Shown here: positions 3,570 to 24,825 of the stretch, piece after piece
Layout: every line of letters begins with the position of its first letter
How positions within the stretch are numbered: position 1 is the first letter of the stretch
Assembly (NCBI GenBank): GCA_019636285.1
Contig: JAHBXV010000001.1
Coordinates: 248,001 to 312,000, forward strand
From: Planctomycetaceae bacterium
GTDB taxonomy: Bacteria > Planctomycetota > Planctomycetia > Planctomycetales > Planctomycetaceae
Length of the DNA: 64,000 nucleotides
Direction: 5' to 3'
Notes under the pieces: generated by a model
What the model was told of the DNA's origin: nothing
What the model saw: only the letters and a program-made list of their open reading frames with translations
Database searches by the model: none
Program-made: the position numbers and the translations under genes

Positions 3570-3938
3570 CTACGCCTGCCGCATCGGGAGCTCGAGCCGG
3601 CAGCATTGCAGGTCCAACAGTTCTTTGCCGTGCGACGAACGGACCAGGATCTTGCCATCAAGACTGTAGTTCACGAAGCGCCCGCGCTTCGAGCGGCGAA
3701 CAATCCCCGCGTGGTACAACACTCCCAGGTGGTGCGAGACCGTCACGATCGTCGCGTCGAGAGACTCGGCGAGATCGCCCACGTTCTTGGCCCCTCGGCG
3801 CAACAGATCGATTATCCGCAGGCGAATCGGATCGGCGATCGCCTTCAGGGTTTCGGCACAATCTTCGGGCTTCCAGCCGGTAGACCGCATGGTTCCGCAA
3901 CCAGATTCGAGCGACGGGGGATCGGAGCGTTTTGTCAT
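3570..3938 (-). CDS. arsR: ArsR/SmtB-family transcriptional repressor
   Basis: 122 residues. A winged-helix core is clear: LKAIADPIRLRIIDLL, NVGDLAESL, TVSHHLGVLYHAGIV (recognition helix) and RRSKRGRFVNYSL (wing). The classical ELCVCDL metal-binding motif of alpha-3 ArsR proteins is replaced by NVGDLAESL, which has no cysteine. Cysteines instead lie at C14, C27 and a vicinal pair C112-C113 near the C-terminus. Some ArsR proteins sense As(III) or methylarsenite through C-terminal cysteines, so that arrangement is a plausible inference here. It is the last gene of the minus-strand cluster, 48 nt after the VOC fusion. Family assignment is strong, ligand inferred. Confidence 0.85.
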   Translation of the reverse strand: MTKRSDPPSLESGCGTMRSTGWKPEDCAETLKAIADPIRLRIIDLLRRGAKNVGDLAESLDATIVTVSHHLGVLYHAGIVRRSKRGRFVNYSLDGKILVRSSHGKELLDLQCCRLELPMRQA

Positions 3939-3986: not shown

Positions 3987-4958
3987 TCACGCGTCTCGGG
4001 CTGGAAAGCAGGTAAAAGCGGTCGCGTAATCGGCTGTCCCGAACAGGTTCCAGGTCTCCCGGTCGACCGAGACGCGCTCTCCCCGTCGAAAAACCTGCCC
4101 GTCGGCCAGTTCCACCTGCCGCGCGCACCCGAGGTACATCACTTCGAACCGGGTCGCGGTGCCCCTGGAGTCGGGCTTGATCGCGGAAAGCTGAATCCGC
4201 CAGATTGTCGATTGTCGCGCGTCGTCGAGCGGGGATATCTGATCGATCCGGACGCCAAGAAATCCGGCGCTGGCCACGGTCGCGATGCTGGCCGGGAGCT
4301 CGTCGATCCCGGTCGACAGTTCCACCCCAAGGCTTCCGCCGGGTTTCAGCGCGCGCAAGACCTCCGCGAGTCGCGCTCGCTGGACGATCTTATCCGAGAC
4401 TTCCTCAAGCGTCCCGTGCAGGTAGATCTCGTCCGCTTCGCTATCGGCAAACGGGAGATTTTCCGGCCAGGGTTCGCCATGCCGATGGCCCCAGGCAACC
4501 GGCAATTCGTCGTCGTGCGGGGAAGTCACTTGCGAATCATCCGCTGGATGCTCGTGGTCTTCGTCGTCGAGCGAGTAAATCTCCCAGATGTTCCCCTCGG
4601 GATCCGAAACCCAGAACTTGGTCTGGAGGGAATAGCAGCACTCAACCCCGTCTTCCCGCTGGGTCGTGATCCCGGCCGATTCCAGTCGATGCTGAATCTC
4701 GATCAGTCGGTCGGCATCTTCCAGGCGGTATCCAATGTGATTGAGCGAGCCACTCGCTTGAGCTGGTCTAACTTGTGCTGATCCGGCGCGGAGGGTGAGA
4801 ACGAGTGGCGGATCGTCCACTTCAAATCGCGCGAAGTCATCGACTCGCCGCACCGGAGCCGCTCCCAACAGCGTAGTGTAGAACTCGATCGCGGCGTCGA
4901 GCCGTGAAACCGCCAGCCCCAGTTCCAGCTTGAGCGACGTTTCGCTGATGGCGGTCAT
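3987..4958 (-). CDS. ArsI/CadI-like VOC domain fused to a C-terminal half of an ArsM-like methyltransferase (fusion 1)
   Basis: 323 residues. Residues 1-135 form a vicinal-oxygen-chelate domain resembling ArsI, the Fe(II)-dependent C-As lyase: a vicinal pair C107-C108 (VECCYSLQTKFW), H74 (LNHIGY) and E126 (DPEGNIWEIY). The first metal-ligand position is E12 where ArsI has His. Residues 165-320 resemble the second half of a class I methyltransferase (LPFADSEADEIYLHG, LAEVLRALKPGGSLGV) followed by a cap (DGQVFRRGERVSVD) like that after the ArsM core. The SAM-binding GxGxG motif is absent, so methylation by itself is unlikely. Its start overlaps the stop of the preceding gene by one base (TGATG). 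Organoarsenical function is inferred. Confidence 0.7.
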   Translation of the reverse strand: MTAISETSLKLELGLAVSRLDAAIEFYTTLLGAAPVRRVDDFARFEVDDPPLVLTLRAGSAQVRPAQASGSLNHIGYRLEDADRLIEIQHRLESAGITTQREDGVECCYSLQTKFWVSDPEGNIWEIYSLDDEDHEHPADDSQVTSPHDDELPVAWGHRHGEPWPENLPFADSEADEIYLHGTLEEVSDKIVQRARLAEVLRALKPGGSLGVELSTGIDELPASIATVASAGFLGVRIDQISPLDDARQSTIWRIQLSAIKPDSRGTATRFEVMYLGCARQVELADGQVFRRGERVSVDRETWNLFGTADYATAFTCFPARDA

Positions 4959-6103
4959 CAGGCATGCTCCTCGACGGTTCGGCGGGATGCCGACCGTGTC
5001 GCGCAGTCGGGAGTATCGTTATCGGCTTCCGCCTCCCAGAGCGCGAGAAACTGGCCCTCCCAGGGCTCCGAGCGCAGGCGAGCAGCGGTCGTTAAATCGA
5101 CGAGCGTCGGCACGCCGCGTTCGAAGGAACGACCATCATCCATCGTGAGCCGCGCGAACGGTCCCCGGTAGAGAATCAACCGCTTCTCGCTCCCTGGCTC
5201 CATGGGCTTCCAGGCCGACAGCTTCAGCTCCCGCAGCTCGACTTCGCCCCACCGGAAGGCTGCTTTCGCCGGAAGCTTCGTCATCCGCAGGTCGCGGAGA
5301 CCAGCGCGCCATAATTCCGACAAAATTTCGCGTTCCGTGGGGACATGGCGCACGAGGGCGGCAACGCCGGGAAGAGCTGGGCAGCCCGGTAGCTCCCGAT
5401 TGGCCACCAGTCCGTGGATGTGGACCACTCCGCCCGCCTTGAGAACGCGCATGGCCTCGGTGAGCAAATTGAATCGCTGTTCGCCGGTCAAATCCGCATT
5501 GAACGTCCCCTCGAGACGCACGAAGTCCACGCTATTGTCGGCATGAGGAATCCGAGATGGACAGGGCGAGACAATGCGATGCTCCCAACCGATGGAAGCG
5601 TCGGCTGGTGACTGGTCCGGCTCGCGTATCGAGACCGATCGGCCACCGGAATCCAGTGATTCAAGATTCCCCAGGCGGCAGGCAATTCGCCAGCAATTGC
5701 CATCGGGATCGTTGACGACAGCCGCGTGTTGTCGCGCGTCATCGAACGGTTCGTCGCGTTTCCAGTCAACATGCAGTCCCGCCACTTCGAGTCGAGTCCC
5801 AACCGCCTCCACCTCCGCGGGATGATGAACGGGAAAGGCAAAGTATCGCGAGTTGTCGCCTCGCCCCGGTGAATGAGGAATCAATGAGAGAATCAGGGGC
5901 GGACGCGTCAGCTCGAACTTGGCATAGTCGTCGTGCTGCCTCGCGGGACGAGTCCCAAACAGGATTCGGTAAAACTGGACCGAACGTCCCAGGTCCGAGG
6001 CGTTCAGGGCCACATGAAATCGCGTGCCGTGGAACTCCGGCTCGGCCGAACAGCACACCGGCGCCTGAAGCATTTCCAAACGTGTTGTTACGGAATCGCT
6101 CAT
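4958..6103 (-). CDS. VOC domain fused to half of an ArsM-like methyltransferase, degenerate paralogue (fusion 2)
   Basis: 381 residues from the ATG at 6103; longer upstream reading would overlap the transporter. It has the same architecture as its neighbour: VOC domain (RFHVALNASDLGRSVQFY, NDPDGNCWRI), methyltransferase second half (MRVLKAGGVVHIHG) and a cap (LYRGPFARLTMDDGRSF). The VOC site is eroded: H30 is kept, but the other ligand positions align to Y87 and R139, and the vicinal cysteine pair of fusion 1 is missing. A different CC pair sits at residues 17-18 (PVCCSAE). The start overlaps the MFS stop as ATGA. It is probably a non-catalytic partner or binding subunit, which is inference. 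Confidence 0.65.
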   Translation of the reverse strand: MSDSVTTRLEMLQAPVCCSAEPEFHGTRFHVALNASDLGRSVQFYRILFGTRPARQHDDYAKFELTRPPLILSLIPHSPGRGDNSRYFAFPVHHPAEVEAVGTRLEVAGLHVDWKRDEPFDDARQHAAVVNDPDGNCWRIACRLGNLESLDSGGRSVSIREPDQSPADASIGWEHRIVSPCPSRIPHADNSVDFVRLEGTFNADLTGEQRFNLLTEAMRVLKAGGVVHIHGLVANRELPGCPALPGVAALVRHVPTEREILSELWRAGLRDLRMTKLPAKAAFRWGEVELRELKLSAWKPMEPGSEKRLILYRGPFARLTMDDGRSFERGVPTLVDLTTAARLRSEPWEGQFLALWEAEADNDTPDCATRSASRRTVEEHA

Positions 6104-7368
6104 GGTTTCGGCGAATCTCCCGCGATGCGGGGCGTGGCTCTGATGGTGGTTGCGGCAACCGCGGCCACGATGGCCGCCACCGCCAAACCCCGCATCACCC
6201 AGGCATATCCGCCCAGAAGAATCTGGCCTTCCGCGAACACCATCGGTCCCAGCGCGGAAGCCACCACGGTCGCCCCCTGTGCCGCTCCCTGAATTTTCCC
6301 CAGATGAGTCTGGCCAAAAAGTTGACCCCAGCCCGCGAAGAAGACAACAGTGATGACGCCGCCAGCCACACCCAGTGCTGCCGCGTAGAGGCGAAGTGCC
6401 AGGAGCGACGAAAGTTGCGGATAACTCGCCAGGCTTCCTGCGAGAAGCGCGAGACCTCCTGCCAGCCACCAGCTCAGCCGCTCGCGCCGCAGGAAGGCAC
6501 CGCACAGCAGATTGGCGAGTAGCCCAGTCCCCGTCAGAATCGACAACAGTTCAATGGCCTGAGGTCTCTCAAAGCCTTGCTCGGCGACAATCGACTCATT
6601 GAACAGCGTCAGCCCCGACCAGACGAGATTGAACAGCGAAATCCCCAGGGCCAGAGTCCAGAATGACGGAGTACGCAGCGCCTCGCGAAGTGTCCGCCCC
6701 GGCTGCTCCATGACGAGCGATGCCGCGACCCTGTGGTCCGTGACAACACTGCCTGGCCGGTCGCGCGCCACCAGCCAGGCCAGTGGCGCCAGTCCGACAA
6801 CAAGCATCACCCCCATTTGGCTCCACGCAGATCGCCAGCCGTATTTCGTGCTCAACTCGCCAAATGCCAGAATGCTCGCGATGAATCCGAACGTCAGCAG
6901 CACGGCGAAGACTCCCATTGCCGCTCCCGATCGGCGGGGAAACCACTTTCCGACCATGGTCAGGCTGACGACGGAGAGCGCGCTTTGACCAAGTCCGCGA
7001 ACCAGAACCAATGCCAGAAACAGGGCAATCGGTCCGTTGGCCGCCGCCATCGCGAAGACGGAAATGCCCAGCGCGAGAACGACGCCGGTCAATGTTGAAC
7101 GCACGCCACGCGTATCCAGCCAGCGGCCGACCGGAAAGCAGAACAGGCTGCCGATCAGGCAGGCGGCGAAGTTCATCTGGCCGAACAGGGGGCGATCGAT
7201 GTGCAGGTCGGCAATGAGGGGCTCGGTAATGAGCCCCAATCCGTGCGTGCGACCGGGCAACGTCGCCGTCATGGCCACGGATGCCAGCACCACTTGCCCC
7301 CAACTGACCAAATAGGTTCGCGGTCGAACCGAAGTCCGTAGCGCCGAAGTCTCGCCATGAATCAACAA
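6100..7368 (-). CDS. MFS transporter, 12-TM, in the ArsR/VOC cluster
   Basis: 422 residues with about twelve hydrophobic segments. The loop 2-3 signature GRWLDTRGVRSTLTG and the motif LVRGLGQSALSVVSLTMVGKW point to the major facilitator superfamily, most like oxalate/formate-antiporter-type or monocarboxylate-type members. It sits 28 nt after the PhyH gene, and its stop overlaps the start of fusion 2 (ATGA), so expression is probably coupled. Context suggests export or uptake of the compound handled by the cluster. It does not obviously match ArsB, Acr3 or ArsP. Superfamily is certain; substrate is unknown. Confidence 0.85.
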   Translation of the reverse strand: MLIHGETSALRTSVRPRTYLVSWGQVVLASVAMTATLPGRTHGLGLITEPLIADLHIDRPLFGQMNFAACLIGSLFCFPVGRWLDTRGVRSTLTGVVLALGISVFAMAAANGPIALFLALVLVRGLGQSALSVVSLTMVGKWFPRRSGAAMGVFAVLLTFGFIASILAFGELSTKYGWRSAWSQMGVMLVVGLAPLAWLVARDRPGSVVTDHRVAASLVMEQPGRTLREALRTPSFWTLALGISLFNLVWSGLTLFNESIVAEQGFERPQAIELLSILTGTGLLANLLCGAFLRRERLSWWLAGGLALLAGSLASYPQLSSLLALRLYAAALGVAGGVITVVFFAGWGQLFGQTHLGKIQGAAQGATVVASALGPMVFAEGQILLGGYAWVMRGLAVAAIVAAVAATTIRATPRIAGDSPKP

Positions 7369-7396: not shown

Positions 7397-8170
7397 TCAG
7401 TCGAAATAAGTTTCTGGCCGATCGAATTGGCTGTATTTCTCTTTCAGCCAGCCTAGGAATACGCGCTGGTGGTCCAAACGCCGGTCGCCGCCATCCGACA
7501 GCGCGTTGTAGCTGAAATAAAGCTGCCGCCGCCAGCGATCGGACCGATTCGCATCGGATCGGTGCGGCAGAAAGCCGCTGAAAACAGCGATATCTCCGGG
7601 TTCCAGTTCCAGGGAGACGGCTGTTGATTCGTCCACGCACGACATTGGCAACTGGTGGTAATCGCCGTCAGCCGTCGACAGACAACCCTCGTGATGCCGC
7701 CCCGGATAGACGATCGTGCATCCGCTCTCAACGGAAGCGACGTCGAGCGGCATGACCAGCGAGACGAAGCTCGTCGGAAAATCAGACCAGGCGATGTAGT
7801 CTTGGTGCAGGCCGTAACCGCTCGCCCCCGGCGGCTTGTAAATCAGCTTGTCCTTGAACAGGCACGCTGGCTCACCAAGAATCGCCTGAAGAATTCCCAT
7901 CACCCGAGAATCGCGCGCCATCCTTTCAATTGGGGGGCTGAGATCGGTGATTGGGTCGAAGCCATCGAACCGACATTCGCCCGTTTCGCAGTGACCCTGC
8001 CAGCGGCAACGCAGGTTATTGATGTCGATCAGATCGCGTCGCGCGAGCAGCCGCTCCGACTCGGCCAGCAGCGGAGCCAGTTCGTCAGGCGAAATCAACT
8101 CGCGAATGACGACATATCCGTCCCGGGTGAACTGTTCCTGCAAATCGACACGGTGGACAACAGACGACAT
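7397..8170 (-). CDS. Phytanoyl-CoA dioxygenase (PhyH) family Fe(II)/2-oxoglutarate oxygenase
   Basis: 257 residues from the ATG at 8170; 13 more upstream codons are open but carry no better signal. The facial-triad motif HxD is seen in GYGLHQDYIAWSDF. The distal His lies in FLPHRSDANRS, with R of RWRRQLYF as the likely 2-oxoglutarate anchor. PhyH proteins hydroxylate or oxidatively cleave small molecules and are abundant in planctomycetes, often not acting on phytanoyl-CoA. It is the first gene of the tightly packed run leading to the transporter, and may oxidise the substrate or product of the VOC proteins. Family is sure; substrate unknown. Confidence 0.85.
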   Translation of the reverse strand: MSSVVHRVDLQEQFTRDGYVVIRELISPDELAPLLAESERLLARRDLIDINNLRCRWQGHCETGECRFDGFDPITDLSPPIERMARDSRVMGILQAILGEPACLFKDKLIYKPPGASGYGLHQDYIAWSDFPTSFVSLVMPLDVASVESGCTIVYPGRHHEGCLSTADGDYHQLPMSCVDESTAVSLELEPGDIAVFSGFLPHRSDANRSDRWRRQLYFSYNALSDGGDRRLDHQRVFLGWLKEKYSQFDRPETYFD

Positions 8171-8274
8171 ATGCTGACTTTCTCGCGCGACCTTGCGCAT
8201 CCGGCGCACTGTAGGCTCGCTGCAAGACGATCGTCAATCGGAGGCCCTCCGCTGTCATCCACGACGGCCCGCGA

Positions 8275-9201
8275 TCAGAATTCGCCAAGAACTTCCCCAC
8301 CGTTTCGCGAAACCAGTCCGTCATACAGGACAACATCCAGATTTTCGGAGAGGAACCGGACCGAACCGTCGCCCATCAGGTGATGCGCGCCCCCTTCGTG
8401 CTGGCTGGATGGGCCGTACTCCTGCCCGATTGAGTTGGGGAAGACGCCTCCCTGGAAATAGGGCCTGTAGTTGATCGAGACCGAGGGACCGGCATAGTTC
8501 GGCGGGATCAGCGCCATGTACCGCGCTGCGACCGAGGCACTCGTCCCGTCGATCCACACCGCCGCCTTTTCCTCGCGCGTTTCGGCGATCACCGCCGTGT
8601 TTGAAGTTCCGTCGGTAATATCGCGGAAGCCGACCTTCGACTGGGGATACATCACCCCCTCGGCGGGGATCGCTCCCGACAGACCGAGGACAGTCTTCGC
8701 CCCCAGGGCCACGTAATTGCGGACCGCGAACTGGGAATAACCGACCGTCGTCACGTACAGCGGATCTTCGCTGTACGTCTTCCCGGAGTAACTGGGGCAC
8801 TTGTAGAACGACAGAACCTGTGAAGCCACGGTGCGATTCGCCGGTCCCAGCGCGGACGTATTGTAGTCGATCGTGTTGTAAAGATTGGCCCCGTCCAGAT
8901 ACGGAAGAATGAGGCTGGCGAAGCTGTGCAGACGGATGGTCGGATCGTTCGGTCCCGTTCCCGGCCAGTTCCAGACACCGCGACCGAAACCGCTGATACT
9001 GCTCGGAGGAAAGACGGTGAACGACGACTCATAGTTGTGAACCGCGAGGCCAATTTGTTTGAGGTTGTTGCGGCACTGCGTCCGGCGGGCCGCCTCGCGG
9101 GCCTGTTGCACGGCCGGCAGCAACAGCGCGATCAGGATCGCGATGATCGCGATCACCACGAGAAGTTCAATCAGCGTAAATCCTCGGCGGCGGGTGGGCA
9201 T
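8275..9201 (-). CDS. DUF1559 domain-containing protein (type II pseudopilin-like)
   Basis: 308 residues, ATG with AGGAA about 9 nt upstream. The leader starts at once with [20 protein letters not shown] and continues [17 protein letters not shown], then [18 protein letters not shown]. The C-terminus [17 protein letters not shown] completes the DUF1559 pattern. Its upstream region carries the 24-bp inverted repeat shared with the propeller operon. The gene is 104 nt ahead of the PhyH gene on the same strand and could be the first gene of a transcript running into the ArsR cluster, although the gap also leaves room for a separate promoter. Confidence 0.9.
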
Positions 9202-9257
9202 GGTCGGAGGTTCCTGTGCAGGAGGAAGGCAGGTTGAGGGCGGCGGATATTGCTGTC

Positions 9258-9281
9258 ATATTCTGACATACGTCAGAGTGT
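9258..9281 (-). promoter_or_regulatory. 24-bp inverted-repeat operator, copy 1
   Basis: On the plus strand the site reads ATATTCTGAC, a 4-nt spacer ATAC, then GTCAGAGTGT. The arms match at 8 of 10 positions, with a perfect inner CTGAC/GTCAG. It lies 57 nt before the DUF1559 start. Read on the minus strand, weak -35 (ATGACA) and -10 (GAATAT) elements with a 17-nt spacer would overlap it. A near-identical site is at 13775. Dyad symmetry over a promoter suggests a repressor site; the repressor is not identified. Confidence 0.55.
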
Positions 9282-9365
9282 GTCATCCTAACGGGCCGTC
9301 GTTTCAACGGCAACTCGCGGGATAGCGACACTGCTCACCGTGCGCGGCAGCCCGAATCCTCCCAT

Positions 9366-10691
9366 TCAGGCTGGAGACTCGGTGAGAATCTCGGCGATCG
9401 GCTTCGCATCCGGGTCGGCCAGTCGAATCGGCCGCGCCACATTCGACATATTTTGTTTGCGCGGGTCGATCCCCAAGGCGACGAAAATTGTTGCCAGCAG
9501 ATCGGGCGTCGAAACCTGTCGATCGTCGACGACGAGCCCGCTGGCATCGGTTCGTCCGACGACTTGCCCACCACGAATCCCGCCGCCGCCAAGGACCACG
9601 CTCCAGGCCTTCGGATAATGATCGCGGCCCTGTCGTGGGTTGATGACCGGTGTCCGGCCGAATTCTCCCATCCAGACCACGAGAGTCGTTTCAAGCAACC
9701 CCCGTTCAGACAAATCCCGCATCAGGGCTGACCAGGCCGTGTCGAGGGTACCACACAGGCTTTGCACACGGGGAAAATTCGCCTCGTGGGTATCCCAACC
9801 GCCGAGGGAGACTTCGACAAACGGGACGTTCCGCTCCACCAGTCGCCGGGCCAGCAAACATCCCTGGCCGAACTGCCCGCGGCCATAGCGGTCCCGAACG
9901 TCGGCAGGTTCATGGTCCAGAGAAAAGGCTTTCGCAGCGGCCGGGCTCATCAGCCGATTCGCCTTCCGGTACGCCTCGCGATGACTCTCTGCGGCTGCCC
10001 CGGGTCGCGCGGCCAGGAATGGCTGTTCGAGCGCTGAAAGCAGCCGTAATCGTTCGTCTACCTGCTCGGGAGAAATGCCCCGAGCGACCGCGAGATTTTC
10101 GACACTCAGCGGTGGACCCGCCATCTGGTCATCCGATTCCCGCCCGACCACCAGCGGCGCATACGACGGTCCGAGAAATCCCCCCGGAGGCATGCCCGGA
10201 CTGAACAACCCTCGTGAGAAAACGCTCACGTAGTTCGGCAGATCACCGGTCTGCTCACCCGCTTCCTTCGCGACGAGCGATCCCAGCACGGGAAATTGAA
10301 TCGAGGCCTGCGGAAAGTACCCGGTCCGCAAATTGTCGCGGGCACGACCGTGGTCCCCCTCTTTCGTCGACATCGAGCGAACCACCGCCAGGTGCTCGGA
10401 CCATTTCGCGATCTCGGGCAAATGCTCCGAGAACTGAATCCCCGGAGTTCGCGTTTCGATCGGCCGAAAAGGGCCGCCATTCGCATGGTCGGGTTTGAGA
10501 TCGAACGTATCGGTCTGGCTGGGCCCGCCATTCATCCACAGCAGGATGCACGACCGCTTCGGACGTGGCGAACCCTCAACGGCCGCCGCAACCGCGGGCA
10601 TCCAGCACCGCAACGACGCCCCAAAGGCCAAGGCAGCCGTCGAGCCCAGCCATAGACGACGCGGCAGCATCGAATCGCGTTGTGTGAACAT
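9366..10691 (-). CDS. DUF1501 domain-containing protein (sulfatase-like fold, exported)
   Basis: 441 residues. The N-terminus (MLPRRLWLGSTAALAFGASL) looks like a signal peptide, possibly Tat-type with an RR pair. The DUF1501 hallmarks are CILLWMNGGPSQTDTFDLKP, STKEGDHGRARDNLRTGY, FVEVSLGGWDTHEANF and VVWMGEFGRTPVINPRQGRDHYP. These proteins are related to alkaline phosphatase/sulfatase folds and are nearly always encoded next to DUF1549/DUF1553 proteins, as here. Their reaction is not established. The gene follows the DUF1549 gene after 149 nt holding a palindromic element. A second ATG at 10670 is an alternative start. Confidence 0.9.
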   Translation of the reverse strand: MFTQRDSMLPRRLWLGSTAALAFGASLRCWMPAVAAAVEGSPRPKRSCILLWMNGGPSQTDTFDLKPDHANGGPFRPIETRTPGIQFSEHLPEIAKWSEHLAVVRSMSTKEGDHGRARDNLRTGYFPQASIQFPVLGSLVAKEAGEQTGDLPNYVSVFSRGLFSPGMPPGGFLGPSYAPLVVGRESDDQMAGPPLSVENLAVARGISPEQVDERLRLLSALEQPFLAARPGAAAESHREAYRKANRLMSPAAAKAFSLDHEPADVRDRYGRGQFGQGCLLARRLVERNVPFVEVSLGGWDTHEANFPRVQSLCGTLDTAWSALMRDLSERGLLETTLVVWMGEFGRTPVINPRQGRDHYPKAWSVVLGGGGIRGGQVVGRTDASGLVVDDRQVSTPDLLATIFVALGIDPRKQNMSNVARPIRLADPDAKPIAEILTESPA

Positions 10692-10840: not shown

Positions 10841-12406
10841 CTAATGGTTCCACCGGAACTCGGGTGAGTTCAAAAGCGCCCACAAGAGATTCCCCAGCCG
10901 ATCGCCACGCTCCTGATTCGCGTGTTCCGTCTTCAGCGTCGTAGCGATCGAGTCGCGCTCGGCATCGGTCGGAAGCCGACTCAACGTCGCGAGAAACAGC
11001 TCATCGATCTGCCGGTCCAGCTCATCTGGAAACTCATCGAGAATTCGCTGCAACCTTGCGCCGGTTGCGAGCTTCGTGGCCCGGTCGACAATTCTCCCGT
11101 TCATGAACGCCAGCGCCTGCGTCACGCTGGTTGCCGGATCGGTCGCGCTCCCCTCGGCCTGGAGCAAATTGAGAATCCTCCGGCGATCGAGTTCCTCAAC
11201 GTCATCACCAGCCACGCGCTCGTCGGCAGGCTGAACCTGGACCGCGAGCACCAGACTGTCTGCAAACTGATCCGGCGACATCGGCCGAATCGCCATCCGC
11301 GCGAAGAGTTCCGGCTGCGACTGATTGTCATGGGTGAGCCGACTGGTCCGCCGATATGCCTCAGACCGGCAGATGGCGCGCAGGAGGAACGAGACATCGT
11401 ATCGCGATGCCCGAAACGCCGCCGCGATTTCATCCAGCAGCTCCGGATGTGACGGCGGATTCGCCGCACTGTAGTCATCGACCGGTTCCGTCAATCCAGT
11501 CCCCAGCAACTGGCTCCAGACCCGATTGACGATCGCTTTCGCGAAGTAGGGATTTGATGGCGATGTCATCCAGGCCGCGAACTCGACTCGTGGCGACTGC
11601 GTTCCCGCAGGTCGCGGTTTCGCTTCATCCAAAAATTGAACCGGAACCATCCGTTCCGTATTCATCAGTGAGATTTCTTTCCGATCGGCCACTTCTACGA
11701 GCGGAGCAAACGGCCCCTTGCCGCGTCGTTCGATGCCCGCAAAAAAGGCGGCTTGGCTCCAGAACTGCTCCCGCGTCCAAGGATCGAACGGGTGATTGTG
11801 GCACTCGGCACATTCGAGCCGCAGCCCGAGAAAGGTCCGAATCGAACTCGACGCAATCTTCGCCGGATCGGCGTTCTTCGACGCGATGAACGCGATGGGA
11901 TTGGGTTGATTGAGATCGCGCAACACGAATTCCGGCGTCTGGTCCGGGCTCGCGATCGGAACCGTCAGCAAGTCCCGCACGATGACATCGAACCCTGCAT
12001 TCTCCAGTCGTCGTTGCTCGAGAAACTTCTCGAAGCCCGGTTGCAAGTAGCGCAATTGCGGTTCAGTTTCGATCTCCGGCAGAAGCAGCGCTCGCCAGGT
12101 CCGCGCGAAATGTCGTGCGTGCCGCACGTCTGCGATCAAGCGGTCGACAAGCTTCGACCGCTTGTCGAGATCGCTGTCGGCCAGGAAAGCGCGAACCTCA
12201 TCGGCCGTCGGGATGCAGCCAATCAGGTCGAGACTGGCTCGTCGCAGGAATTCGGCATCGTCCGCCGGTGGCGCCGGTTCCACCGACTCGATGCTCAGAT
12301 GCTCGGCAATCCGGGTATCGATAGCCCGTGCCAGGGCATCCTGATCGCCACTGTAGGCGGGAGGGACACCAATCAGGCCGAGAAGGATCCACGGTATCAC
12401 GTTCAT
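10841..12406 (-). CDS. DUF1549/DUF1553 domain-containing secreted protein
   Basis: 521 residues with a signal peptide (MNVIPWILLGLIGVPPAYSG). The DUF1549 half contains FLRRASLDLIGCIPTADEV and CAECHNHPFDPWTREQFW, the latter a CxxCH-containing motif characteristic of the family. The DUF1553 half contains YFAKAIVNRVWSQLLG and FLLRAICRSEAYRRTS. This is the short form without an N-terminal cytochrome (PSD1) domain. Such proteins pair with DUF1501 proteins in planctomycetes; the biochemical role is unproven. It lies 36 nt after the PQQ propeller gene and so is almost certainly co-transcribed with it. Confidence 0.9.
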   Translation of the reverse strand: MNVIPWILLGLIGVPPAYSGDQDALARAIDTRIAEHLSIESVEPAPPADDAEFLRRASLDLIGCIPTADEVRAFLADSDLDKRSKLVDRLIADVRHARHFARTWRALLLPEIETEPQLRYLQPGFEKFLEQRRLENAGFDVIVRDLLTVPIASPDQTPEFVLRDLNQPNPIAFIASKNADPAKIASSSIRTFLGLRLECAECHNHPFDPWTREQFWSQAAFFAGIERRGKGPFAPLVEVADRKEISLMNTERMVPVQFLDEAKPRPAGTQSPRVEFAAWMTSPSNPYFAKAIVNRVWSQLLGTGLTEPVDDYSAANPPSHPELLDEIAAAFRASRYDVSFLLRAICRSEAYRRTSRLTHDNQSQPELFARMAIRPMSPDQFADSLVLAVQVQPADERVAGDDVEELDRRRILNLLQAEGSATDPATSVTQALAFMNGRIVDRATKLATGARLQRILDEFPDELDRQIDELFLATLSRLPTDAERDSIATTLKTEHANQERGDRLGNLLWALLNSPEFRWNH

Positions 12407-12442: not shown

Positions 12443-13732
12443 CTATTTCGACTGTGCGTCCGCGTTCGGCGACAATTCCAGGCACGTCAATTCCTTGTCG
12501 TCCCGGACGTAGACCCGCCCGTTCGCGAGCGCCGGATTGCTGAGTGTTCCCCGCGAGACCTGCGACTTCGCGAGTTGCTTGAACCCTTCGCGCGTCACGT
12601 CGGCCAGCACGAGGTTCCCGGCATCATCGAGAAACAACAGCTTGCCGTCTCCCGTTCCAATTAACCCGGCGTGATAGTAGCCCACGCCTTCCTGCTTCCA
12701 AAGCTCTTCGCCACCCGCCAGATCGAAACATGTCAGATCGGTGCGCGGCAGCGGCGAAAGGACGTTCGTCACGATCAACACGCTTCCCTTCGGCCCCATC
12801 GTTCCGGTGGAAAAGTAGCTGCTCGCATCCTGATTCCACCATGCCGCTTTGAGGGCTGATTTCTCCTGGCCATCGGGTAACACCAGCGACATGGTCCCGG
12901 TGTCCTGAGTCGTGACGACCAGCGACGAATCCATCGCCAGTGGAGTGGGTGAAACTCCCGCCGGCTGAAACACCAGCGGATGTTCCCACTTCACTTGGCC
13001 ATCCGCCGGTGAAAGCCCCACGACCCGCAATGTCGTCTGCACGACGATTTCCTGCTGTGAAGTACCTCCACGATCGCGCGTCAGCAGAATGGGTGAAGCC
13101 GAACTCGCCGGCTCGTCCAGCCCTTTCCACGCCACTTCGCCCGACTCCAGACGATAAGCGACGACAGCGCTGCCCCCCGCGCCGACCATCGCGATCACGT
13201 TCTCACCCACGATCAATGGCGAACTGCAAACGCCGAATCGCGGCAGCGATCCCTTGAACTCTTCGTACGGATTCGTCTGCCACAGCCGCTTTCCCGTCTT
13301 CAGGTCGTAGCACGACAGGACGCCCGTGATGCCGTAGGTCACGAGTTTCCCGTTCGCGATTGTCGGCGTCGTCCGCGGCCCGGCTCCGAACATGCTGCGA
13401 TAGCGTGTGCGGGGATAGCGGTCGCTCCACAATTCCGTGCCCGTCGCCGCGTCCAGTGCCAGAACCTCTTCGGCGTCCTCGCCTTCCACCGCCGAGTGAA
13501 TAACCGTTGCTCCGCCAGCAACGATCGGCGACGTGTAGGCCAGTGTCACCGGCCGCTTCCAGGCCACCCTGGGCGCGTCATTCCAGGCGGCGACGACTTC
13601 GTCCGTCACCCCGTTTCGATTCGGTCCCAGCCACTGGGGCCAGTCTCCGGCGAAGGCGGCACCGCTCACGAAGAACAGCCACGCCCCGACAACTCGCACG
13701 GTCGTCGGGACTTGCACAGACTTGGGGACCAT
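12443..13732 (-). CDS. Secreted PQQ-binding-like beta-propeller repeat protein
   Basis: 429 residues from the ATG at 13732, which has GGAG about 8 nt upstream; a start at 13786 would run through the operator. The signal peptide is followed by the planctomycete start of this family (AGDWPQWLGPNRNGV) and by blades such as VLALDAATGTELWSDRYP and LSCYDLKTGKRLWQTNPYE, the A-x-D-x-x-T-G-x-x-x-W repeats of PQQ-type propellers. Conserved dehydrogenase active-site motifs were not seen, so it is probably a scaffold or binding protein. It is first in the operon with DUF1549/1553 and DUF1501. Confidence 0.88.
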   Translation of the reverse strand: MVPKSVQVPTTVRVVGAWLFFVSGAAFAGDWPQWLGPNRNGVTDEVVAAWNDAPRVAWKRPVTLAYTSPIVAGGATVIHSAVEGEDAEEVLALDAATGTELWSDRYPRTRYRSMFGAGPRTTPTIANGKLVTYGITGVLSCYDLKTGKRLWQTNPYEEFKGSLPRFGVCSSPLIVGENVIAMVGAGGSAVVAYRLESGEVAWKGLDEPASSASPILLTRDRGGTSQQEIVVQTTLRVVGLSPADGQVKWEHPLVFQPAGVSPTPLAMDSSLVVTTQDTGTMSLVLPDGQEKSALKAAWWNQDASSYFSTGTMGPKGSVLIVTNVLSPLPRTDLTCFDLAGGEELWKQEGVGYYHAGLIGTGDGKLLFLDDAGNLVLADVTREGFKQLAKSQVSRGTLSNPALANGRVYVRDDKELTCLELSPNADAQSK

Positions 13733-13774
13733 CTCGCACGCTCCAGCGGGATCCACGGCCGTTGCACACACTGA

Positions 13775-13798
13775 ATATTCTGACACACGTCATAGTGT
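13775..13798 (-). promoter_or_regulatory. 24-bp inverted-repeat operator, copy 2
   Basis: The left arm ATATTCTGAC is identical to copy 1 at 9258; the spacer is ACAC and the right arm GTCATAGTGT differs by one base from copy 1. It sits 43 nt before the propeller start at 13732, at a distance like that of copy 1. On the minus strand, GGACAA and GAATAT flank it as weak promoter elements. Two copies before two neighbouring operons make a shared regulator likely. Confidence 0.55.
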
Positions 13799-18604: not shown

Positions 18605-20014
18605 TCAGGCGACAGTCGTCCCGAGAAATCGCAGCGGGACTCCGTTGTGCGGCACAACAATAATGCCGCGCAGCCGTGCCAGGGGAGGCGGAGCGCCGCA
18701 CGACTCAAACCGGGCGGCGGCCAGCAGCGTTCCCAGAACGACTCGCAATTCAAACGCTCCGAACGCGGCCCCCACGCAGCGACGGCCTCCCCCTCCGAAT
18801 GGAGCATACTCCCAGGGAGCATATGTTCGCCCCAGGAATCGCTCCGGCCGAAACTCAACCCCGTCCTGCCAGACCTCGGGCGCCGTATGCAACAGCCGTA
18901 GGGAAACCGCGACGTTTTCACCCGGTTGAATCGTCCATCCTCCCAGCGACATCGCCTCTTTGACCTGCCGGACCGACAATTGAATGGGAGGATGAAGCCG
19001 CAGTGCTTCCTGACAGACCGCGTCCAGGTAAGTGAGCTGATTCAGTTGCTGGGGGGTCGGTATGGCCCCGAGCGGGGCGATTTCATCGGATAGCGACTGC
19101 GAGATCTCCGCTCGATGATGAATGAAGTACAAAGCCCACGCCATGGTCGAGGCCGTCGTATCGTGCCCGGCAATCAGCATCGTCCGGAGTTCGTCCCGCA
19201 GTTCGCTGTTGTCGAGTTGCCGCCCTTCCTCATCGCGGGCATGAATCAACTGGCTGAGGATGTCGATCTCAGGCACGGCTTTCGCGCGCTTCGCCTCAAT
19301 CTGAATGTCCAGCAGGCGGTCGAGTTCTTCGCGAGCCTTCAGAAAACGGGTCCACTGACCCAGGCTGGGGATGGAATGCCGGAACATGGGCATCAGCATC
19401 AGAATCGGCGTGTAGGCCTGCAGAAACCGGATGACCGCTGACTCCATCGCAGTCGCCGCGGCCGGCTCCGTCACACCAAAAATCGCGCGGATAATGATGT
19501 GCAGCGTAATCACCTGAGCGAGATGATGCGTCCTGCAAATGGTACCCGGCTCAAGCCGCCTGAGTGCTTCGAGGGTGATCTCCTGCATCAGGTCCCCGAA
19601 GAGCTCCATGCGATCGCGTCGAAAGGCTGGCAGCACCAGGCCGCGCGAACGACGATGTGTCTCGCCGGAATTCAGCACGATCGAGTGCTGCCCAAAAACG
19701 GGCTCCAACGGCTGGCCGCGTGGAGCATCGAACGCATGCACGGGCTGCTGATAAATCTGCCGGACTTCCTCCGGAATTCCCGTCAGCAATGTCGGATCGA
19801 CTCCTGGCAGCCACAGCCAGAAATTTCCACCGAGACGCGCCCGCTGCCGTTCGAGAAACCCTTCCGGATCGCGCGCCAGCCCAACCGCGCCGCGCAGCCG
19901 GCTGGCAGCAATTCCCGCGAGCGCGGGCCATGACCGTGGACCTCGCTCGCGCCACCGAGTGGCGCGAACATCGCCTGTTCCGTTTGGTGGTTCCGTGAGA
20001 GAGACAGTTGCCAT
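18605..20014 (-). CDS. Cytochrome P450
   Basis: 469 residues from the ATG at 20014. The I-helix oxygen motif AGHDTTAS, the ExxR of CQEALRLHPP, and the heme loop PFGGGGRRCVGAAFG (Cys ligand C413) are all intact. The order and length suit a class I bacterial P450 needing a separate ferredoxin and reductase; none is encoded nearby. It is last in the minus-strand biosynthetic run, 31 nt after the O-methyltransferase, and probably hydroxylates or couples the product. Substrate cannot be deduced. Confidence 0.92.
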   Translation of the reverse strand: MATVSLTEPPNGTGDVRATRWRERGPRSWPALAGIAASRLRGAVGLARDPEGFLERQRARLGGNFWLWLPGVDPTLLTGIPEEVRQIYQQPVHAFDAPRGQPLEPVFGQHSIVLNSGETHRRSRGLVLPAFRRDRMELFGDLMQEITLEALRRLEPGTICRTHHLAQVITLHIIIRAIFGVTEPAAATAMESAVIRFLQAYTPILMLMPMFRHSIPSLGQWTRFLKAREELDRLLDIQIEAKRAKAVPEIDILSQLIHARDEEGRQLDNSELRDELRTMLIAGHDTTASTMAWALYFIHHRAEISQSLSDEIAPLGAIPTPQQLNQLTYLDAVCQEALRLHPPIQLSVRQVKEAMSLGGWTIQPGENVAVSLRLLHTAPEVWQDGVEFRPERFLGRTYAPWEYAPFGGGGRRCVGAAFGAFELRVVLGTLLAAARFESCGAPPPLARLRGIIVVPHNGVPLRFLGTTVA

Positions 20015-20045
20015 GGCCCGAAAGATTCCCTCGTCGACAAGCCGT

Positions 20046-21194
20046 CTACCGGGGAAGCACGCGCCGGGAGGGCTTATTTCCGTACACCATCGTGGTGGGT
20101 CCAATCACATGACGATGGCGGACGTCGACAAAACCAGCCTCTTCAAACCAGCGACGACACGACGCAATCGGAGCCTCGAACCCGTCGCGGGTTTCCAGCA
20201 TGATGTTCAAACTTGAAAGCATCCCCACCATGTTCGTGCGGGCATCATCGATCATGGCGTCATACACAATCAGCGCACCCCCTTCCGGCAGTGCGTCGAA
20301 TGCTTTGCCGATCAATTCGCGACGTTTCGCTTCGCCGTACCCGTGCAGCAGGTGCCCCATGGTGATGACATCCGCCGTCGGGAACGGCCCGACGTTCATA
20401 TCACCCGGAACAAACCGTAGACGGTCGGACAGGCCAAAGGACGCAACATACTTCTCATAAATTGGCTGAACGGGTGCCAAGTCGTAGCTGAGCCCCGTCA
20501 CATGAGGATGCGTCATGGCGACGCGAACCGACAGCGCCCCCTGGGCTCCGCCAATATCCGCGAACGTCTGGTAGTTCTTCCACGGAAACAGCGACGCGAT
20601 CAGGATCGTCTCGCCCGTGGAAATCCCCGTCATGCCCGAGAGAAACCGCTCGAGTTCAACGGGGTTCTGGTACAGCGTCGAAAAGAACTCGTTCTGCCCC
20701 TGCTCTTCGATGGCGGCGGGTTCGCCGGTCTTGAGCAGGTGCCCCAGTTGATTCCACAGGGCGTACAGCCGCGTGCTCGACAGTTCCATCAGCCCGCCAA
20801 TGTAACTCGGCTGATTGCGATCGAGAAACAACCCCGCCGCCTGCGAATTGCGATAGCAGCCCGCCCGATCGCGCTTGAGCAGCCGCATCGCGACAAGCGC
20901 GTCGAGGAAAACAGTCGCGGCCCGCTCATGCCAGCCAAACTTCTGGCGAAGTTGCTCCGCCGTCATCCGCCCTTTCGCCAATTCCGTGAAGACTCCCGCT
21001 TCGACGGCGGTCAGCACCACCCGCGACTGCCAGAACGACATCCCAAGGTGCAGAATGTCCTGGGGATCGATGAACTGACGCACGGCTGTTCCCAGAACCG
21101 GGTTCTGCAGAATCCGCATCAGCCGCCGCTCGCGACGCAGATCAAGCCTCTCGGACTCGGGTTTCGGAGGAGCCGGGTTGAGCGTGGTTGACAT
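20046..21194 (-). CDS. SAM-dependent O-methyltransferase (Methyltransf_2 / CrtF-like)
   Basis: 382 residues from the ATG at 21194 (GAGAG 8 nt upstream). An N-terminal winged-helix dimerisation region (FWQSRVVLTAVEAGVFTEL, MTAEQLRQKFGWHERA) precedes the SAM fold: FADIGGAQGALSVRVAM (motif I), FVPGDMNVGPFPTADVI, and MGHLLHGYGEAKRRELI (catalytic region). This is the layout of small-molecule O-methyltransferases such as tetracenomycin or hydroxyneurosporene methyltransferases. It lies between the ThDP enzyme (48 nt) and the P450 (31 nt), implying methylation of a hydroxyl on the cluster's product. Confidence 0.88.
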   Translation of the reverse strand: MSTTLNPAPPKPESERLDLRRERRLMRILQNPVLGTAVRQFIDPQDILHLGMSFWQSRVVLTAVEAGVFTELAKGRMTAEQLRQKFGWHERAATVFLDALVAMRLLKRDRAGCYRNSQAAGLFLDRNQPSYIGGLMELSSTRLYALWNQLGHLLKTGEPAAIEEQGQNEFFSTLYQNPVELERFLSGMTGISTGETILIASLFPWKNYQTFADIGGAQGALSVRVAMTHPHVTGLSYDLAPVQPIYEKYVASFGLSDRLRFVPGDMNVGPFPTADVITMGHLLHGYGEAKRRELIGKAFDALPEGGALIVYDAMIDDARTNMVGMLSSLNIMLETRDGFEAPIASCRRWFEEAGFVDVRHRHVIGPTTMVYGNKPSRRVLPR

Positions 21195-21242
21195 CGGAAA
21201 AACTCTCACTTTGTTCGTGGAACATGCCTCGCGGCGTGAATG

Positions 21243-23093
21243 TCAGGACTGCCAGATCGTCGGGCCGGATTCCGTCTTCCGGCTTTCACCGACGCGGTAG
21301 GTTTCGGCATCATTCGGCAGGAACGGAGTGAACGGCGGAATCTCCTCGCGGCCGAGCATCAGTTCCAGAACTCCAGGCCCTTCCGAAAACGCCTGGTCGT
21401 ACTCGTGCAGCGCGTCGGTCAGTTCAAAGGGGCTGGCCACCGTCCGCGTCCAGAGAACGGCTTCGGGATCCAGTCCGCGAGCCACGCCGGCAGCCGAGAA
21501 TGGCGGATACTGCGAGCACTCGATTCGCCCCTCGAAGTAGAGTTGCTGACGAGTCACGCACATGCCGTGCATGCCATTGTTGAAGACGACGTAGAGAATC
21601 GGCAGCCGATATTCGATCGCCGTGTGAATCTCCATTCCCTGCATCAGGTACGCGCCGTCGCCACACAGCACAACTGTCCGCGCCCCGGCGGCTGAACCCA
21701 ATTGCGCCCCAACCGCTGCCGCGATGGCATATCCCATTCCTCCCATCCCCAGCGCGATCGTCGCTGTCACGTCGGAAGGGATTCGCAGGGCATGCAGCCC
21801 CGCCGCCGCGCAATTCCCGGCATCGAACAACACGTGTCCGCGCGACGGAAGATACGACTGAAGGATTTCAACGGCCGTGCTTTGAAGCAGTTCGTTCGCT
21901 GCGACCGCCACGGAAGCCCGGGAATGCGGCGCGCGAAACGGTTTTTCGTCCGACTCGCCGTTTTCGGTCGCGGCACGCCGGGAACTGGTCCGAATGGGAG
22001 CGGCCAGCCGGGGAACATATCGTTCGACGGGCCGTTCAATGGGCTCGCGCTGCCGGAACGTGCGCGTCCGCAACATCTCCAGCATCTCTTCAAACACGTG
22101 CCCCGCATCGCCGGGAACCAGCACATCGGGCGCCTTCGGCCATAGGTTCTGATCCACGTCGATCCCGACAACCGCGAGCGAAATCTGCTCCAACGACGCC
22201 GCGATCGGGTGTCGCGTCATCACGTCCAGCGACGTCCCCACCGCGACCAGAAGATCCGCCTCCTCCGCCAGATACCGATGCGCTGACGGTTCTCCCGCGA
22301 CGCCGATCAGCCCCAGGTAAAGCGGATCCGTGTTCGGAAACGCCCCCTTGCTCGAAAGGGTGGTGCAGACGGGAATATTCGCGGCGCGCGCGAACTGGAC
22401 CGCCGCCCCCCCGTGGTGGCTACGTTCAACCCCTGCCCCGAACAAGAACACTGGTGCATCGGCGGCCATCACATATTCATACAGCCGCTCGATATCGCGG
22501 TTCGCCGCCAGCGCCGGTTGCACGCATTCCCTCAGCGGGCGATCGAGATCCCCGGGACGGGCATCGACCGGTTGATCGTAAAGATCGCGAGGAATCAGCA
22601 GCACCGACGGGCCCGGACGACCCGACATCGCCACGCGCACAGCCTGACGAAGCGCCGGCCAGAACTCCGCTGGATCCGTGATCTTCACGCAGAATTTTGA
22701 AATGCTCGACCAGAGACGAACGCCATCCACTGTCCCAGGATTTCCGGACGAATCCTGAAACGCGCCACGCCCCTCGAGGGTTCTGGGCGGCTGACCCACG
22801 ATGGCCAGTACCGGAACGCCATCGGCGAACGATTCGGCCACCCCGACGGCCAGGTTCATCATGCCGCCGCCCGACGTGGCACAGCAGACACCCAAGGTCT
22901 TATGCACGCGCGCCCGGCAGTCGGCCATGAACGACGCGCCGATCTCGCTCTTGGCGAGCACCGATTTCAGCCGCCCCTGCCCCAGCCGATGGATCGAGTC
23001 GTGCAGGTGCTCAATATTGGCACCGCTTACGCCGAAGACGTAGCGCAGTTCCCAGTCCCGTAAGAGCGTCGTCAACTCGTCCACGAGTTTCAT
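21243..23093 (-). CDS. Thiamine-diphosphate-dependent enzyme (acetolactate synthase/benzoylformate decarboxylase-like)
   Basis: 616 residues with the three ThDP-enzyme domains. The N-terminal domain carries the activating Glu (E50 in AKSEIGASFMADCRA), the middle domain reads APVFLFGAGVERSHHG, and the C-terminal domain has the ThDP motif GDGAYLMQGMEIH ending in VVFNNGMHG. A charged Arg/Ser-rich linker (around residues 365-395) between the middle and C-terminal domains is longer than usual. Such enzymes form or break C-C bonds through an acyl anion. Placed between a KAS III-like enzyme and an O-methyltransferase, it probably builds an alpha-hydroxy-ketone-type intermediate rather than branched amino acids. 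That role is inferred. Confidence 0.85.
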   Translation of the reverse strand: MKLVDELTTLLRDWELRYVFGVSGANIEHLHDSIHRLGQGRLKSVLAKSEIGASFMADCRARVHKTLGVCCATSGGGMMNLAVGVAESFADGVPVLAIVGQPPRTLEGRGAFQDSSGNPGTVDGVRLWSSISKFCVKITDPAEFWPALRQAVRVAMSGRPGPSVLLIPRDLYDQPVDARPGDLDRPLRECVQPALAANRDIERLYEYVMAADAPVFLFGAGVERSHHGGAAVQFARAANIPVCTTLSSKGAFPNTDPLYLGLIGVAGEPSAHRYLAEEADLLVAVGTSLDVMTRHPIAASLEQISLAVVGIDVDQNLWPKAPDVLVPGDAGHVFEEMLEMLRTRTFRQREPIERPVERYVPRLAAPIRTSSRRAATENGESDEKPFRAPHSRASVAVAANELLQSTAVEILQSYLPSRGHVLFDAGNCAAAGLHALRIPSDVTATIALGMGGMGYAIAAAVGAQLGSAAGARTVVLCGDGAYLMQGMEIHTAIEYRLPILYVVFNNGMHGMCVTRQQLYFEGRIECSQYPPFSAAGVARGLDPEAVLWTRTVASPFELTDALHEYDQAFSEGPGVLELMLGREEIPPFTPFLPNDAETYRVGESRKTESGPTIWQS

Positions 23094-23161
23094 CGTTCGT
23101 CTGTTCTACGGTTCCAACCGAATTGAAATCCCTGGATACGCCTGCACGTAGAAGGCCGAGG

Positions 23162-24184: not shown

Positions 24185-24825
24185 TGCGGTCCTCCCAGCG
24201 TCATCGGCAGCTCCGACCGGTGACGGTATTCGAGAATCTGTTTCAGGTTCTCCAGTTCAATCGCATGGCCCGCATAGAAGAACGGCCACATGTCCCCGAC
24301 CCACACCTTACGACCCGGCGGGCCTTTCTCAGGGAACGGATTGTTGAGGTAATATGGATGCCGGCAATTGGTCCAGAGAATGACGCAACCCGGCTTCTTG
24401 AAGACGAGTTGCGCGGGAACAACCCGCATCAGGTAAATCATCCACAACTCGTCCCCCTGGTCCCACGAGCAATGGAAGTCGACCGTTCCCGCCTGTTCGT
24501 TGGATTCAACTCGTGTGAAGATCTTCGTTTGTCCGCCGATCTTATCGGTGGCAATCACCATTCCCGTTTCGTCGGGCAACGTGAAGTCCCGGAGACTATA
24601 AGTCCACTCCTGCAGCGTATAGACGTCGGCCAGATACTCGAACGCCTTATCAGGCGGACAATCGACGTAGGTCTCGACCGTGCAGAATTCCCCGTACACT
24701 TCGTCATGGGGATAGACCGCATGAGTCATCTCCATGGCGAGCGCCGTCATGTCTTCCTTCGAACAGTTTTCGATGCGATGAACGCCGGGCAGCGCGTCAA
24801 TCTCCGAACAGACCGAAACTGACAT
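24181..24825 (-). CDS. SRPBCC (START-like) family protein, possible cyclase or binding protein
   Basis: 214 residues. VETYVDCPPDKAFEYLADV and the following YTLQEWTYSLRDF are the beginning of a SRPBCC/START helix-grip fold, continued by FHCSWDQGDELWMIYLMRVV. The C-terminal third (VGDMWPFFYAGHAIELENL) extends past the usual domain. SRPBCC proteins in polyketide-like clusters act as aromatases, cyclases or ligand carriers. It is first in the minus-strand cluster and overlaps the KAS III gene, so the two proteins are probably made in equal amounts. Specific role unknown. Confidence 0.75.
   Translation of the reverse strand: MSVSVCSEIDALPGVHRIENCSKEDMTALAMEMTHAVYPHDEVYGEFCTVETYVDCPPDKAFEYLADVYTLQEWTYSLRDFTLPDETGMVIATDKIGGQTKIFTRVESNEQAGTVDFHCSWDQGDELWMIYLMRVVPAQLVFKKPGCVILWTNCRHPYYLNNPFPEKGPPGRKVWVGDMWPFFYAGHAIELENLKQILEYRHRSELPMTLGGPQ

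Follow-up and report, generated by a model that had tools for sequence, protein, structure and literature searches.

What could a carbon-arsenic (C-As) lyase domain be doing in one protein with half of an arsenic methyltransferase? This question is raised by two adjacent genes, F1 and F2, in a 64,000-nucleotide stretch of a Planctomycetaceae bacterium genome (assembly GCA_019636285.1, contig JAHBXV010000001.1, forward-strand positions 248,001 to 312,000), referred to here as the window and numbered from its first nucleotide. Both genes lie on the minus strand, F1 at 3987-4958 (323 amino acids, aa) and F2 at 4958-6103 (381 aa, with its ATG at 6103). Each encodes an ArsI/CadI-like VOC domain followed by the second half of a methyltransferase fold and an ArsM-type C-terminal cap, a layout claimed earlier from the nucleotide sequence (the original prediction) and borne out by the open reading frames (ORFs) and by matches to domain models. 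Together with their relatives, they suggest an ArsI-type lyase family that reuses half of ArsM, in a gene cassette for which no description was found, and an undescribed route of organoarsenical breakdown.

Demethylating enzymes complete the natural cycle of arsenic by removing its methyl groups, and to our knowledge little is known about arsenic demethylation beyond ArsI acting on methylarsenite. According to the accessible text of a 2023 paper, how dimethylarsenate is demethylated is not yet clear (PMC10579292). The recurrent, often ArsR-linked set of ArsI-type lyase, oxygenase and transporter genes provides a concrete and testable candidate for arsenic demethylation. It is also a clear example of a methyltransferase fold that was halved and retained with no cofactor site, and of a pair of paralogues that seem to share out two jobs of one protein.

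The lyase site and the half-methyltransferase

F1 consists of an ArsI-type VOC domain (aa ~11-141), a decayed half-ArsM (aa ~156-260) and an ArsM C-terminal cap (aa ~270-318), while F2 consists of a VOC domain with a lost active site (aa ~28-142), a well conserved half-ArsM (~173-300) and an ArsM cap (~306-356). In both proteins the VOC domain occupies the place of the half that binds S-adenosylmethionine (SAM), and what follows it corresponds to the substrate-side half of the ArsM sheet together with the cap, as read from matches to the ArsM model, Foldseek comparisons and, for F2, VIA-align placement. The VOC domains match Pfam Glyoxalase (F1, E 4e-13; F2, E 3e-9) and, by sequence, solved C-As lyases (F1, E 4e-20; F2, E 3e-11). 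Against the NCBIfam model ArsI_CadI_VOC (NF041414), F1 scored 114.6 or 116.5 bits in two scans, at the curated cut-off of 116, and F2 scored 74.9-77.4 bits, far under it.

The two proteins differ most at the lyase site. F1 carries the vicinal cysteine pair (CCY) and an E-H-E metal triad, a Glu variant at the first ligand (Q/H, H and E in ArsI); F2 has FDD at the matching place of the cysteines and H-Y-R at the metal positions. Since the thiols are gone from the F2 VOC domain, along with two of its three metal residues, only F1 looks, from its residues, like a working lyase. The same division runs through the relatives, among which tandem copies are called A (first gene, as F2) and B (second gene, as F1). 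All 32 single-copy proteins and all 15 B proteins, that of locus L059 included, carry the motif CC[YHN]xxQ[TSN]KFW, and none of 16 A proteins does; the A protein of L082 has a CC that is out of register. Residue by residue, of 17 A proteins, 13 keep H-H-E at the metal positions and 12 read CGY instead of CCY; the A protein of L059, the closest relative of F2, lacks the thiols and one or more of the metal residues. The original prediction had treated F1 and F2 alike, and the shared layout holds; their equivalence does not, as the ArsI site is found in F1 and not F2, and the half-ArsM is decayed in F1 and conserved in F2.

What remains of the methyltransferase is its C-terminal side. F2 residues 188-358 match positions 168-342 of the 356 in the model of arsinothricin-type ArsM (NF040538) at E 1e-13, and the F1 match is weak (E 1.5e-4, residues 227-302). 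Each of the 24 related half domains that were scanned also matches this model (best E 5e-19), and in the two members whose coordinates were inspected the match begins at position 168 or 170; the GxGxG-bearing half is therefore missing. That this SAM-binding N-terminal half is absent from F1 and F2, as claimed earlier, is supported by the model, reached in F2 from position 168 on, and by a profile of two ArsM N-terminal halves, which found nothing among the window's ORFs at E 1e-3. The half-ArsM is thus predicted to be unable to act as a methyltransferase by the known mechanism. The F1 half is too diverged for the half-family profile at 1e-9, and F2 is the one match in its own genome.

Structure prediction points the same way. 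The AlphaFold2 models of F1 and F2, built on 14-sequence alignments, have a mean predicted local distance difference test (pLDDT) score of 75.5 each and predicted template-modelling (pTM) scores of 0.43 and 0.48, and the half-domain blocks of F2 reach pLDDT 76-96. Searched against the PDB with Foldseek, the F2 model matched CrArsM best (E 1.5e-10), with CmArsM and human AS3MT also at the top and a C-As lyase at 9.6e-10; the F1 model matched best a structure that we take to be CmArsM (E 7.9e-9), with the C-As lyase ArsI at 9.3e-8. Both models match ArsM/AS3MT and ArsI, which agrees with the fold assignment made from the sequence. VIA-align placed F2 160-356 on CrArsM with Z 13.2 and a root-mean-square deviation of 6.5 over 173 residues; in its list CrArsM and one putative methyltransferase are the only matches of the half, the remaining rows being VOC chains. 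No ArsI C-As lyase chain is among the 50 VIA-align matches listed for F2, although such chains stand high in Foldseek. The SAM-less methyltransferase-like domain of anamorsin is among the Foldseek matches of both F1 and F2.

Does the half still recognise arsenic? The half-family profile aligns to CmArsM from residue 159. In place of CmArsM C174 it has Gly, part of the family motif L-x-G-T-x-N, and the position of C224 falls in the segment LPGxAxxV, where none of 24 aligned sequences has a Cys. We take C174 and C224 to be arsenic ligands of CmArsM; PDB titles of the matched structures name C224 and C72 mutants. The idea that the half is an arsenite-binding module was rejected as the default, both cysteines being gone. 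Of the earlier proposal that the half serves the lyase as a recognition module for methylated arsenic, the reuse of the ArsM fold stands; recognition of arsenic by the half is not supported. The (nearly) invariant residues of the half are W-x-H, L-x-G-T-x-N, a His after strand beta-5, F, R-E, G-P and R-G. These include positions beside the old ArsM active site, some of which align with what we presume to be its wall, and the half may still bind something there.

Recurrence, descent and complementary decay

A member of the half family scoring at least 104 bits is found in 66 of 397 genomes of the class, the window's own included, and this recurrence excludes a chance fusion. The next-best genome scores 89 bits, within the range of ArsM-like frames of ~390-430 aa. 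In a sample of 392 genomes of the phylum, four besides the window's own have a near full-length match to F2. A scan with two strict peptide patterns, which says nothing on absence elsewhere, gave eight loci, in Limnoglobus roseus, Zavarzinella formosa, a Schlesneria metagenome-assembled genome (MAG), two Gemmataceae MAGs, a MAG labelled 'Bacterium' and two MAGs labelled proteobacterium. Among 113 plasmid records matching a single-copy fusion protein, none covers 80% of it; of the 15 matches listed, 12 are annotated ArsI/CadI and three as the arsenate reductase ArsC. A viral origin was set aside after one scan of viral contigs with F1 returned no relative. An internal TGA read as selenocysteine was likewise rejected: in the three rows examined (L005-L007) the alignment had run past the gene's own terminal stop.

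The architecture itself varies. Single-copy proteins with VOC and half and no cap occur in L087-L091, L094, L095 and L062 (12106-12996), mostly with the oxygenase-transporter cassette described below. The A copies of L077 (7437-8075) and L078 (7584-8225) consist of VOC and ArsM cap and have lost the methyltransferase half. In G373, which counts among the 66 carrier genomes (L037, ~6300-6830, minus strand), a 190-aa frame holds half-ArsM and cap with no VOC, either a remnant or a stand-alone half.

A midpoint-rooted tree of 69 VOC domains (118 columns) has 63 fusion domains on one side and six stand-alone ArsI on the other side of a branch supported at 96/96. The A genes (n = 16) form one group (99/87) and the B genes (n = 15) another (95/96), while the single-copy proteins form no single group. 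F2 falls among the A proteins and F1 among the B proteins, and both cluster with the same relatives, L059 and then L071. The simplest reading is that the VOC domain has a single origin and that a single duplication gave two copies, which have since been passed on together. The B protein of L082 (two unjoined frames) and the short pieces of L057 and L084 were left out of the tree, the motif count and the domain scores below, and rows L044, L048, L054, L056 and L074 lie outside the tree.

The half domain is under purifying selection. In four close orthologue pairs, two of them from one genome and F1/F2, which have no close relative, not among them, the ratio of nonsynonymous to synonymous substitution rates (dN/dS) of the half is 0.249, 0.321, 0.062 and 0.025, and that of the VOC domain plus linker is 0.215, 0.254, 0.065 and 0.034. 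With hidden Markov models built from 25 single-copy proteins, F2 and the A protein of L059 score 90-92 bits for VOC and 129-139 bits for the half, and F1 and the B protein of L059 score 146-147 bits for VOC and 32-39 bits for the half. The remaining A and B proteins score 118-176 bits for VOC and 95-151 bits for the half, except for the A copies of L077 and L078, whose half is lost. The window's lineage thus presents a complementary decay, in which the lyase site is ruined and the half intact in F2, and the other way round in F1. This is the pattern expected if A and B act together, each keeping one of two needed parts, and it suggests a working pair.

One may ask whether the half does anything beyond structural support. 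The half and cap could be purely structural and bind no ligand, helping the VOC lyase to stay soluble or to dimerise, which would make the fusion an ordinary ArsI with an ornament. The eight proteins without a cap, the A copies of L077 and L078 without a half and the decayed half of F1 speak for this account, since such variety means that loss of half or cap is tolerated in some lineages. However, W-x-H, L-x-G-T-x-N, the His after beta-5 and R-E are kept and partly align with the presumed active-site wall, the dN/dS of the half resembles that of the lyase domain, and the window's lineage keeps the half in one partner where that of the other decays. We regard this account as unlikely, though it is the strongest of the alternatives.

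The gene cassette and its proposed function

The surroundings of the fusions were compared in 46 loci, taking 6 kb on each side of the fusion (some cut by contig ends). They represent 41 of the 66 carrier genomes, one further genome of the phylum sample and two MAGs of the eight-locus scan, two genomes giving two loci each and the window's own locus being excluded. Neighbours were called by BLAST thresholds with reference proteins drawn partly from the same loci. In the window, just upstream of F2 on the same strand lies an MFS transporter gene (6100-7368), with relatives near the fusion in 38 of 46 loci, preceded by a PhyH-family Fe(II)/2-oxoglutarate oxygenase gene with an HQD motif (7397-8209, minus; 35/46). 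Just downstream of F1 lies an ArsR/SmtB-type repressor gene with a C-terminal Cys-Cys (3570-3938, minus; 21/46). The F2 stop and the F1 start have one base in common and the MFS stop and F2 start overlap as ATGA, and through these overlaps MFS, F2 and F1 look translationally coupled.

The ArsR association exceeds what gene density would give: with eight ArsR-type genes in the 6.37 Mb of the window's own genome, about 0.8 ArsR neighbours would be expected by chance in 46 windows if other genomes are alike. Together with arsC (three loci), acr3, stand-alone arsI and full arsM (two each), it agrees with the expectation that the architecture recurs beside ars genes; acr3-arsC-arsI adjoins the fusion in two loci. 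The window's ArsR scores 77.6 bits against a family cut-off of 55, and the C-terminal Cys-Cys is present in 23 of 26 aligned ArsR proteins, the window's included. The three others are one in L060 and those of L035 and L036, which stand beside acr3 and arsC. According to the accessible text of PMC11868830, SpArsR, which has no third Cys of the C-terminal AfArsR site, responds to methylarsenite and not to arsenite. The cassette ArsRs also share a conserved Cys near the N terminus, and arsenite may therefore also be an inducer.

All 36 inspected PhyH proteins have HQD; from its sequence, the window's protein can be placed in the PhyH superfamily and no more narrowly. At E 1e-5, no solved structure is related in sequence to the MFS protein. 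In six loci (L033, L062, L072, L073, L087 and L095) the cassette has a TonB-dependent receptor gene close by, which suggests uptake of a larger molecule across the outer membrane.

Taking these features together, we propose that the cassette serves an ArsR-controlled oxidative degradation of organoarsenicals, that the half-ArsM would act as a SAM-less binding or assembly module for a substrate or partner, and that the window's pair is most likely a heteromer; as a whole, we consider the proposal evenly balanced between right and wrong. The ArsI-type site of F1 would hold a trivalent organoarsenical on Cys-Cys beside Fe(II) and cut the C-As bond with oxygen, like ArsI. The half-ArsM of F2 would serve as a pseudo-methyltransferase module that positions substrate or partner. 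PhyH probably oxidises a carbon linked to arsenic, either ahead of cleavage or following it, and transport of substrate or product, in or out, may fall to the MFS protein. Single-copy carriers would have both jobs in one protein; after an old duplication into the A/B pair, the window's lineage would take the lyase site from B (F1) and the half-ArsM from A (F2), most likely within a heteromer. Substrate, order of reactions, direction of transport and heteromer are what we infer from these genes.

Several points weigh against this proposal, which is drawn from sequences and predicted models. The first metal ligand of F1 is Glu instead of His/Gln, and with the C174 and C224 equivalents replaced, arsenic binding by the half is not supported. 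The Foldseek TM-scores for ArsM are low, about 0.25-0.37, as the alignments span domains whose mutual placing is uncertain. The PhyH proteins are not uniform, since a stricter motif (a later His and an RRQLYxSYN stretch) is present in 14 of 36, and their substrate may differ; the window's PhyH scores 94 bits against the model of methylphosphonate hydroxylase (PhnY-type), whose cut-off is 500. Of the 46 loci, 25 have no ArsR and 11 no PhyH within 6 kb, some of these loci lying at contig ends, and no MFS was found in the cassette of L059, the nearest paired relative. The single-copy proteins of L085 and L086 branch beside the A group on a long branch, and the complementary decay is seen in two loci only. 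The DUF1501, DUF1549, DUF1559 and PQQ neighbours described below have no evident arsenic role.

In a bolder form, which we consider rather improbable, PhyH and the VOC/half-ArsM fusion would form an aerobic route for the breakdown of poly-alkylated arsenic, in dimethylarsenate or in larger organoarsenicals. PhyH would hydroxylate one As-methyl group and the SAM-less ArsM wall of the fusion would position the product for cleavage; in the window's lineage, a dead lyase/live pseudo-methyltransferase and a live lyase/dead pseudo-methyltransferase would form an obligate heteromer.

The rest of the window's own genome bears on the direction of arsenic metabolism. On another contig (L107, C62 ~8806-9752) an arsR lies beside a 457-aa arsM-arsD fusion and an arsA-like ATPase gene, ArsD and ArsA being presumed identities. 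The GxGxG motif and the arsenic cysteines of the ArsM-ArsD protein are intact, and F1 and F2 are the only ArsI-type matches in the genome. To judge from these genes, the picture fits an arsenic-methylating cell with F1 as its sole candidate C-As lyase of the family, making up a putative methylation/demethylation pair.

In a different account, the half would have a regulatory or docking role: bound to a second protein (ArsM or PhyH, for instance), it would pass methylated arsenic on to the lyase. This account draws on the arsM-arsD fusion and the absence of other ArsI-type matches just described, and on two closely similar loci of proteobacterium-labelled MAGs, L085 (416-3881) and L086 (798-3762), in which PhyH and a single fusion are joined by an adjacent, convergent full-length ArsM gene. 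Anamorsin/Dre2 is a known carrier of a SAM-less methyltransferase-like domain; the accessible text reports that it lacks the glycine loop and does not bind SAM in vitro (PMC3440578). A full ArsM is, however, present in just two of the 46 loci by the N-terminal-half profile, and we hold docking to be improbable. A split methyltransferase, with its SAM half encoded nearby, was rejected for the loci searched: the same profile found among the ORFs of the 46 loci only the full ArsM of L085 and L086 and a weak match in L105 (25.7 bits).

Degradation, as proposed above, has also to be set against its opposite, namely that the genes build an organoarsenical natural product and export it. An oxygenase and an MFS gene in one set, an arsinothricin-type ArsM as the best family match of the half, and tandem diverged paralogues would all suit such a pathway. 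Yet no As-C bond-forming radical SAM enzyme of the ArsL/ArsS type was recognised in the neighbourhoods, where no dedicated search was made, and the ArsR neighbours would fit a detoxification response better, which makes synthesis distinctly improbable. Decaying duplicates or a fusion artefact, as hinted by the lost VOC site of F2, the 190-aa frame of G373 and the two frames of the L082 B gene, are hardly credible and already largely contradicted by the 66 carrier genomes, the paired inheritance in the tree and dN/dS well below 1 in pairs other than F1/F2.

Known systems and further neighbours

Compared with the known C-As lyase ArsI (NF041414; 5c4p, 5v0f), the fusions share the VOC fold, and F1, the B proteins and the single copies share CC..Q.K.W and the metal triad. 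Known ArsI stands alone (its model has 147 positions), whereas the fusions add half-ArsM and cap; F1 lies at the family cut-off and F2, its site lost, far below. With ArsM/AS3MT (NF040538; 4fr0, 5evj, 8xt7) they share, in sequence and predicted fold, the C-terminal half and cap (positions ~168-342 of 356), but lack the SAM-binding half and the equivalents of C174 and C224. The N-terminal domain of anamorsin/Dre2 (4m7r) is alike in being a methyltransferase-like domain that has no SAM glycine loop and sits in a protein of different function; unlike the fusions, anamorsin is, as we understand it, a eukaryotic Fe-S protein, neither derived from ArsM nor joined to an oxygenase.

Among described arsenic systems, SAR11 bacteria oxidise dimethylarsenate, and a larger CsdB-ArsI-like protein that is up-regulated by dimethylarsenate is a candidate (PMC6426599, accessible text). 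It resembles the fusions in having an ArsI-like domain inside a larger protein, but it is annotated as a cysteine desulfurase, and the accessible text mentions no ArsM half. Other arsenic genes are also known joined in one protein, namely ArsR-ArsC, Acr3-ArsC and AqpS-ArsC (PMC6205960) and ArsRM (PMC10190100), whereas none of these, so far as the accessible texts go, joins ArsI to a truncated ArsM. The open-access literature searched, which leaves subscription papers mostly outside, gave no description of an ArsI-half-ArsM fusion or its cassette in its accessible text; the view that no protein with VOC and truncated ArsM had been described is to this extent upheld.

Further genes on the minus strand extend the neighbourhood upstream. 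A gene for a prepilin-like protein that we take to be of the DUF1559 type (8275-9201) has relatives in 22 of 46 loci, a weaker link to the cassette, the family being abundant in planctomycetes. Farther upstream lie genes for a DUF1501 protein (9366-10691; 9/46), a DUF1549/DUF1553 protein (10841-12406; 10/46) and a PQQ_2/BamB-like beta-propeller (12443-13786; 9/46). Across the 46 loci, an EF-hand protein occurs in eight, and TonB receptors and CobW GTPases in six each. The CobW/HypB-type GTPase matches lie in L033, L034, L072, L075, L102 and L103, directly after the fusion and ArsR in the last two. Farther along the window, at 18605-25000, is a cluster resembling a natural-product locus, whose genes are presumably those for a cytochrome P450, an O-methyltransferase-like protein, a thiamine-diphosphate enzyme and a ketoacyl-synthase-III-like protein.

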